DNA of 64,000 nt. It comes from Branchipolynoe longqiensis. Lineage: Eukaryota; Annelida; Polychaeta; Phyllodocida; Polynoidae. Numbering within the stretch: position 1 is the first letter of the stretch; each line of letters begins with the position of its first letter. The position numbers and the translations under genes are program-made. The notes below the pieces were generated by a model. That model made no database searches and was not told the origin of the DNA. It worked only from the letters and a program-made list of their open reading frames with translations. Positions 24,281 to 33,734 of this stretch are shown here, piece after piece. The stretch covers positions 1,564,923 to 1,628,922 of the forward strand of contig CM059199.1 in NCBI GenBank assembly GCA_030323885.1, in the 5' to 3' direction.

Positions 24281-25013
24281 TGGCATGTCATTGAGTAGAT
24301 TTGTGTTCGTTCAAAGGAATATTGGGTGCTAAAATAACTGTAGTGTCTTGTTATTGTTACTTTTCAGCCAATGAAACTGGACCTCAACTGCTAGATCCCA
24401 GGTCAACTTTGTGTAAAAACTGTAATGTTCTATGCCTGATTTGTGAAATAAGCCCGCAACCACCTCAGCCCATAAATTAGTTGTCTGATATCCGCAATGA
24501 ATCTTGACATCAGCTCTAAGTGGATGATAGTAAGATATCCCATATCTTGGCAATATCTGCAACTTGATGACAATAAACGAAGCAGAAAAAACACTGTTGA
24601 TCCATTCACATTAACAGGTATTTTACTGCAATTTAAATAGCCCAATTATAGGATCAGCGTGGTGTTGGGTTAACACAACGAAAGGTACTTACCGCCAAAA
24701 CACATTGTGGTATGCTCTCTACACTCAAATCCACAATTACTGTTTGTTTATTTGCTACTTGGGGTTTTACCTACTGGCAACATGTAAGGCCCATATCTAG
24801 CCATTACAGGTTTCTCCCACACAGCCGTTGAGGAGTAAGGGTGGCCTGAGTTGTATCAGCCCTCATCGGTATGCACCGGTCTCTTTGCAACATCGATCAA
24901 GACTTGCAAACAATATCTATCAAGACTCGCGACTCGGAACACAAATACGAAGCTGAGCGGAAGCTGTAAGCGTCTCTGGCGGTTTAGGTGCCGGGACGGA
25001 CGGGCCTGATCTG
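24281..25013. other. Region just upstream of miR-10
   Basis: AT-rich, then more balanced from about 24840, with CpG-containing sequence at 24940-25010 (GGTGCCGGGACGGACGGGCC). It is probably part of the primary transcript. No repeat was recognised in the 700 bases before the hairpin. Confidence 0.4.
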
Positions 25014-25091
25014 GTAGACTATTTCTACCCTGTAGAACCGAGCGAGTGTTTGGTATTCACCACTCAGTTCTCAGGGTCTATGTACTCTACC
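25014..25091 (+). ncRNA. mir-10: miR-10 family microRNA precursor
   Basis: Precursor of a miR-10 family microRNA, a small RNA that represses target mRNAs through Argonaute. The predicted 5p mature RNA is about 25026-25048 and begins TACCCTGTAGAACCGA. From memory it matches the common miR-10 sequence at 17 of 22 positions; the differences are U to A at position 12 (as in vertebrate miR-10b) and changes at positions 17-20. The seed ACCCTGT (25027-25033) is intact. The stem folds by hand: a basal clamp GGTAGA/TCTACC (25014-25019 with 25086-25091), CCCTG/CAGGG (25028-25032 with 25072-25076), GAAC/GTTC (25035-25038 with 25067-25070), then GAG/CTC and GTG/CAC, closing a 9-nt loop at 25049-25057. 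About 12 nt separate the basal junction from the mature 5' end. Processing motifs known from animal pri-miRNAs are present: TG at 25013, TGT at the loop base (25047-25049) and CNNC at 25097-25100. The 3p arm is about 25059-25080. No neighbouring Hox exon is visible. Confidence 0.92.
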
Positions 25092-25209
25092 CATGACAAC
25101 ACAACAGTAGCCCTGCTTACATTTACAACTTACATAGAAATGGCCGCGTCCTAGTTACAGCGTGGATTCGGAAGATGACCCTTGACCCCGGCGTATTGGA
25201 GGACAAGGA

Positions 25210-32892: not shown

Positions 32893-33640
32893 CAGCTGTG
32901 ATGGGGTGACGGCCGGCCCGTGAACAGTTGGTGGAAGGAGTGAGTGACAAGATCTACCCTAGGTGGTGGTGTTGGTGGTGGTGGTGGTGCCAGGTTGAGA
33001 AATTTGTCAGCGCGAGGTTGAGAAATTTGTCAGCGTGAGAAACTACCTGTATTATCACCACCACCACCACAACCTCCCACCCACCCACCCACAACCCCAG
33101 CTGGAATGGAGTGACGGCTGACGTATGGCTGGAGGGTGGAAGGAGTGACTGACAAGATCTACCCTAGGTGGTAGTGGTGGTGGTGGTGGCAGGTTGAGAA
33201 ATTTGTCAGCGCGAGAAACTACCTGTATCATCACCGAGGTGGTGGTGGCGGTGGTGGTGGTGGTGCCAGGTTGAGAAATTTGTCAGCGCGAGGTTGAGAA
33301 ATTTGTCAGCGCTAGAAACTACCTGTATTATCACCACCACCACCACCACCACCACCACCACCACCACAACCTGCCTCCCACTACCCACCACCCCAGTTGG
33401 AATGGAGTGACGGCTGGCATATGGATGGAGAGTGTCAGGAGTGAGTGACGAGATCGAGGTGGTTGTGTTGATGATTGTGACAGGTTGAGAAATCTGTCAC
33501 TGCAAAACCCTACCTGCACAACCACCACCGGCACCACAAACAACCCCAGCTGTAATGGAGTGACGGCCGGCTTATGGACGGACGGTGGAAGGAAGGAGTG
33601 ACGAGATTTAGATGGTGGTGGTGGTGGTGGTGGTGGTAGT
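32893..33640. repeat. Complex tandem repeat with GGT/ACC tracts
   Basis: Four units beginning near 32895, 33102, 33399 and 33550 with GGAATGGAGTGACGGC-type sequence, each followed by a (GGT)n run, one or two GGTTGAGAAATTTGTCAGCG and a (CAC)n run. The GGT and ACC tracts can pair as hairpins. Confidence 0.85.
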
Positions 33641-33649
33641 AATTGTGGT

Positions 33650-33700
33650 GCCACCTGGATAAAAGCTTGCAAGTACGGGTGAAGCTTTTATCTAGGTGGC
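33650..33700. repeat. 19-bp stem hairpin
   Basis: GCCACCTGGATAAAAGCTT (33650-33668) pairs with AAGCTTTTATCTAGGTGGC (33682-33700) with one mismatch around a 13-base loop. It lies within the GGT/ACC repeat region. It is shorter than a typical pre-miRNA stem. Confidence 0.85.
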
Positions 33701-33734
33701 AGGTTGAGAAATTTACCAGCACGAGAAACTACCT

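Follow-up and report, generated by a model that had tools for sequence, protein, structure and literature searches.

A probable miR-10-family microRNA gene, one of four posterior copies, in the Hox cluster of Branchipolynoe longqiensis

Extra Hox-embedded miR-10 paralogues are already known in annelids and molluscs, as two earlier reports describe (PMC3394115, PMC6160089). The first places additional amphioxus miR-10 copies at Hox5/6 and Hox9/10, with a similar placement in Capitella (PMC3394115). The second reports mir-10b from annelids and molluscs, together with a mir-10c specific to annelids and with mir-1991, in the Hox clusters of Eisenia (PMC6160089). Elsewhere, mir-1991 is placed between Post2 and Post1 (PMC4138081), and the zebrafish HoxDb cluster is described as reduced to miR-10d (PMC3707753). 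Here, we analysed a 64-kb stretch of DNA, the window (C14:1564923-1628922), within a 1.85-Gb assembly of 1914 contigs. A hairpin in this window is, in our judgement, very probably a microRNA gene of the miR-10 family and a posterior Hox-cluster paralogue, and we document its sequence, fold, position, paralogy and the selective conservation of the hairpin relative to its surroundings. The features of the hairpin, together with their state in three paralogues (L002, L003 and L004), are as follows.

25012..25013, plus strand: basal UG at -14, also UG in L002 and L003 and CG in L004
25014..25091, plus strand: miR-10-type precursor hairpin (core stem-loop), from its fold, the shuffles and a structure kept in the three paralogues
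25014..25091, minus strand: antisense of the hairpin, folding at -36.5 kcal/mol, z -6.32
25026..25048, plus strand: predicted mature 5p arm TACCCTGTAGAACCGAGCGAGTG, seed ACCCUGU, identical in L002, with a putative exact 5′ end
25047..25049, plus strand: apical UGU, kept in all four copies
25060..25080, plus strand: predicted 3p (star) arm, from pairing and placed with 2-nt overhangs, with putative ends
25097..25100, plus strand: CNNC (CAAC), starting at +17 from the predicted 3′ Drosha cut, also at +17 in L002 and L003 and at +19 in L004

The original prediction of an intact miR-10 seed on the 5′ arm of a 78-nt stem-loop at 25014-25091 was borne out. Read on the plus strand, the stretch runs GTAGACTATTTC-TACCCTGTAGAACCGAGCGAGTG-TTTGGTATTCA-CCACTCAGTTCTCAGGGTCTA-TGTACTCTACC, with divisions that are our probable assignments, and ACCCUGU sits on the 5′ arm behind a predicted mature start at 25026. 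We take ACCCUGU on a 5p arm to be the seed of the miR-10 family. Furthermore, TACCCTGTAGAACCGA corresponds to what we take to be the first 16 nt of vertebrate miR-10b, and AACCGA in the mature arm presumably recurs in miR-10b as well; the order-2 Markov expectation of this 16-mer in the window is 1.4e-5, a figure to be read in the light of a family picked after the fact. The predicted basal TG, apical TGT and downstream CNNC are likewise present at the canonical offsets that positional rules assign to UG, UGU and CNNC. Across the four copies, UG at -14 occurs in three, CNNC at +17 in three and the apical UGU in all; at the offsets tried, the genome's two other miR-10 hairpins showed no UG at -14.

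The 78-nt stretch forms one stem-loop with a minimum free energy of -29.1 kcal/mol (z -4.34), which none of 200 shuffles and, in a separate run, none of 3000 dinucleotide shuffles matched, in agreement with the expectation that it would fold better than shuffled sequence. The longer stretch 24990-25110, suggested as a fold check, gave a less striking result than the core (z -1.95, with 10 of 200 shuffles as good). When the 5′ side was held constant, an equally good fold was reached by 11 of 3000 shuffled 3′ sides and by 34 of 5564 window stretches put in place of the 3′ side. Of 3298 78-nt windows matched for GC and drawn from across the 64 kb, 21 folded equally well, three of them being the antisense of the hairpin itself. 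Folding alone is thus not rare here and would be insufficient evidence.

When the genome was searched with the hairpin at the DNA level, four places were returned, all on C14; this copy number is a lower bound.

C14 1.590 Mb, plus strand: the window copy
C14 1.446 Mb, plus strand: L002
C14 1.213 Mb, plus strand: L003
C14 0.594 Mb, minus strand: L004

Mean identity over the four copies is 96% in the mature arm and 89% in the 22-nt star arm, against 24%, which equals chance, in the 100-base flanks; the loops differ. The structure is shared as well, with 97.4% of cells paired over the four copies compared with 32-50% when partners were slid. Covariation is weak. Changes to both partners occur in three basal-stem pairs, a number that 49 of 500 shuffles reach and that partners slid by -2 or +2 also yield, and further pair types equal the shuffled mean. 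The covariation score was reached by 6 of 500 shuffles, as was the count of such cells; within the 18-pair duplex helix, no pair changed on both sides in the four copies. The argument for selection therefore comes mainly from conserved arms between unrelated flanks, as old functional miRNA duplicates predict. The three conserved paralogues on the same chromosome are the decisive support for a real miR-10-type hairpin, and they likewise support the membership of the miR-10 family that had been proposed for it.

The strand deserves separate consideration, because the antisense of the hairpin folds better than the sense (-36.5 vs -29.1 kcal/mol), as it does in three of the four copies, whereas the two other miR-10 hairpins of the genome fold better in sense. 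Additionally, a single CTCAGGG site occurs 1.2 kb past the Hox4 stop, against about 0.1 expected over the whole 13.2 kb read past Hox stops. These observations would suit a functional minus strand, or two functional strands, in a bidirectional locus like iab-4/iab-8 with a minus-strand 5p arm carrying CCCUGAG, which we take to be the seed of lin-4/miR-125. However, the energy gap is largely accounted for by conserved C-A duplex mismatches that become G-U in antisense. Precursors that we take to represent miR-10a, miR-10b and fly miR-10 fold better in sense when computed, but the presumed miR-100 precursor is slightly better in antisense (-26.8 vs -25.7), so the reversal is not unique to this locus. 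On the plus strand, six of the listed stem pairs contain G-U cells and none contains A-C cells, which favours the plus strand, with the caveat that the sense fold supplied the list and that two conserved C-A mismatches fall outside it. Of four minus-strand starts tried, three lack UG at -14, and none of the five minus-strand ends tried has CNNC at +16 to +18. We therefore regard function of the minus strand, alone or together with the plus strand, as very unlikely. It is very unlikely that the posterior copies in general are bidirectional, with a miR-10-seed RNA from the plus strand and a CCCUGAG (lin-4/miR-125-like) RNA from the minus strand; if they were, a single array within the Hox cluster would provide seeds of both classes, in analogy to iab-4/iab-8.

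Database scoring raises a different doubt. At gathering thresholds, Rfam returned no RNA-family match in the window, mir-10 included. The mir-10 model (RF00104) scored the hairpin at 26.1 bits against a gathering cut-off of 47.5, with E 0.0003 over 301 bases. Over the whole window, E was 0.064, and 14 of the 59 listed rows had a smaller E, from other families and all under their own cut-offs. Among the paralogues, L002 scored 36.7 and L003 25.6 bits, and L004 gave no mir-10 match at E 0.1 or better. However, the canonical miR-10 of the same genome, an exact 20-nt match that served as a control, reached 33.1 bits, and a hairpin near Antp (L057) reached 28.9 bits, likewise under the cut-off. Since the canonical miR-10 itself misses 47.5, the cut-off is no fair bar and does not separate members in this genome. 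The low score, well below the family cut-off, and a fold weaker than those of L002 and L004 might be expected of a decayed miR-10 duplicate whose expression has gone. Yet the mature arm is the same as that of L002 while the flanks are at chance identity, and the hairpin and its motifs are kept, which makes such decay highly improbable.

The genomic setting was established with a homeodomain query, which found 36 places in the genome, 30 of which were read. The Hox gene names rest on residues that we take to be diagnostic, and those of Lox4 and Hox3 are also backed by database matches.

C14 0.532 Mb, minus strand: Post2, homeodomain match
C14 0.969 Mb (homeobox to 969591), minus strand: Lox2, homeodomain match
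C14 1.705 Mb (homeobox from 1705234), plus strand: Lox4, homeodomain and database matches
C14 2.339 Mb, minus strand: Antp, homeodomain match
C14 2.394 Mb, plus strand: Lox5, homeodomain match
C14 2.596 Mb, plus strand: Hox5, homeodomain match
C14 3.004 Mb, plus strand: Hox4, homeodomain match
C14 3.744 Mb, plus strand: Hox3, homeodomain and database matches
C14 4.201 Mb, plus strand: Hox1, homeodomain match
C14 48.9 Mb, far outside the cluster: Post1, homeodomain match

For Lox4, the first organism-named matches were the annelids Capitella teleta and Paralvinella palmiformis, each at 97% over 60% of the query (among the best 120 of 2902), and the mollusc Lottia stood at 82% to the same query among the matches listed. 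These matches point to a spiralian and probably to an annelid. A vertebrate (lamprey or hagfish) origin, which AACCGA in the mature arm had suggested, was rejected on the Lox5, Lox4, Lox2 and Post types of the Hox genes. From the window hairpin, the distance is about 115 kb to the Lox4 homeobox and about 620 kb to that of Lox2, with Hox genes on both sides on the same contig. Three of the copies, the window hairpin included, fall in the Lox4-Lox2 interval, and the fourth falls in that of Lox2 and Post2. None of the 36 homeodomain places falls inside the 64-kb window; there, tblastn with five homeodomains gave a best E of 0.071 over 19 aa, and N-terminal and full-length Hox4/Hox5 queries gave nothing at E 1. 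From Post2 to Hox1, the cluster occupies C14:531943-4200782, about 3.7 Mb on one 78-Mb contig, and Post1 lies about 44.7 Mb past Hox1. A Hox2/proboscipedia-type homeodomain was not recognised in the 30 of 36 matches read; it may be lost, intron-split or missed. Homeodomains of ParaHox type occur at C6:39.59-45.26 Mb, where one that we take, by diagnostic residues, to be Xlox-like (L011) and one taken to be Cdx-like (L014) are 55 kb apart and a presumably Gsx-like one (L015) is 5.6 Mb off.

A pattern search added two further hairpins. The canonical miR-10 core, an exact CCCTGTAGATCCGAATTTGT with a hairpin fold, is at C14:2807936 on the plus strand, inside the Hox5-Hox4 interval (2596228-3003649) and about 1.2 Mb from the window hairpin. 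The related hairpin L057 (C14:2330600-2331600; match at 2331126, minus strand) has the core CCCTGTAGAACCGAGC, reads CCCTGTAGAACCGAGCTTGTG, folds at -52.7 kcal/mol and lies about 7.5 kb from the Antp homeobox. It has the CCCTGTAGAACCGAGC core in common with the window hairpin; unlike the latter, it continues with UUGUG, has another star arm and a much stronger fold, and lies on the minus strand. This search yielded 44 matches at three mismatches or fewer versus 41 for the reversed pattern, which puts the weaker matches at chance level, and only the exact match and the one strongly folding Hox-cluster match (-52.7) were counted from it. At least six miR-10-type hairpins can thus be assigned to one cluster: the canonical one in the Hox5-Hox4 interval, L057 close to Antp, three copies in the Lox4-Lox2 interval, and L004 between Lox2 and Post2.

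The original prediction had treated the hairpin as the anchor gene of a locus between Hox4 and Hox5. The hairpin is indeed a marker of the Hox cluster, but it belongs to a set of four similar paralogues rather than being a single anchor gene, and it sits between Lox4 and Lox2; the proposed Hox4 and Hox5 flanks are elsewhere on C14, around a separate canonical core. That the window should hold the single canonical bilaterian miR-10 of the Hox4-Hox5 position, as the seed, the 16 nt presumably in common with miR-10b and a locus within a Hox cluster might suggest, is scarcely credible with the Hox5-Hox4 interval about 1 Mb off and furnished with its own exact CCCTGTAGATCCGAATTTGT and hairpin fold. 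The miR-10 seed by itself does not place a locus between Hox4 and Hox5.

For the posterior paralogue that we favour, transcription would proceed on the plus strand, which also carries Lox4 and, in all, six of the nine cluster-placed Hox genes. Drosha would be expected to cut before 25026 and after about 25080, followed by Dicer, and the 5p arm would then enter Argonaute and may repress mRNAs with ACAGGGU-type sites. By analogy with known miR-10 genes (PMC3394115), Hox mRNAs would be expected among the targets of the 5p arm, along with others. Seed sites in 13.2 kb past ten Hox stops showed no excess: a 7mer-m8 occurred once (Lox5), a 7mer-A1 once (Hox5) and an 8mer not at all, compared with about 2.0, 0.6 and 0.2 expected at the rates of the window; these are stretches past stops rather than defined UTRs, and the count is a weak negative. 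With four hairpins giving nearly the same mature RNA, the dose would probably be raised in posterior Hox territories, or expression may be split among regulatory neighbourhoods. Four near-identical mature RNAs whose flanks have diverged to chance make it possible to test whether selection keeps posterior miR-10 dosage or separate regulatory neighbourhoods.

Pfam searches of 10 of the 97 listed ORFs gave one match, a DUF under its cut-off; the tRNA search of the window found none, and no homologue was found for one transposon-like ORF. At 32970-33710, repeats that form strong hairpins contain a recurrent AGGTTGAGAAATTTGTCAGCGCG unit and may be what is left of a mobile element. Tandem arrays make up 13.5% of the window (1-64000), and seven copies of a 300-nt family match the reference copy at 67% identity or better. 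The window is repeat-rich relative to expectation for the inside of a Hox cluster.

In the main texts of open papers, UACCCUGUAGAACCGAGC was not found, and CCCUGUAGAACCGAGC or its DNA form was absent among the matches listed. The mature pattern was absent from prokaryote contigs and a looser pattern from viral contigs, collections that are uninformative for an animal gene.

Compared with known systems, the window hairpin shares the seed ACCCUGU, the 5p arm, the hairpin and a Hox-cluster location with the canonical Hox4/Hox5 miR-10 (Rfam RF00104), and differs from it in its Lox4-Lox2 position, its four copies and a mature 3′ half that reads GCGAGUG rather than AUUUGUG. The spiralian mir-10b and annelid mir-10c, compared by description (PMC6160089, PMC3394115), are extra miR-10-family genes in a spiralian Hox cluster, as here; Eisenia is described with two mir-10b and one mir-10c (PMC6160089), versus four window-type copies in the present genome. 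By its description (PMC4138081), miR-1991 likewise has the miR-10 seed and a place in the posterior Hox cluster of lophotrochozoans, but it lies between Post2 and Post1, whereas the copies here lie between Lox4 and Post2 (C14 0.594-1.590 Mb). The four Lox4-Post2 copies look like a lineage-level elaboration, and what appears to be new locally is that a Hox cluster of about 3.7 Mb has four posterior copies whose mature RNAs are almost identical.
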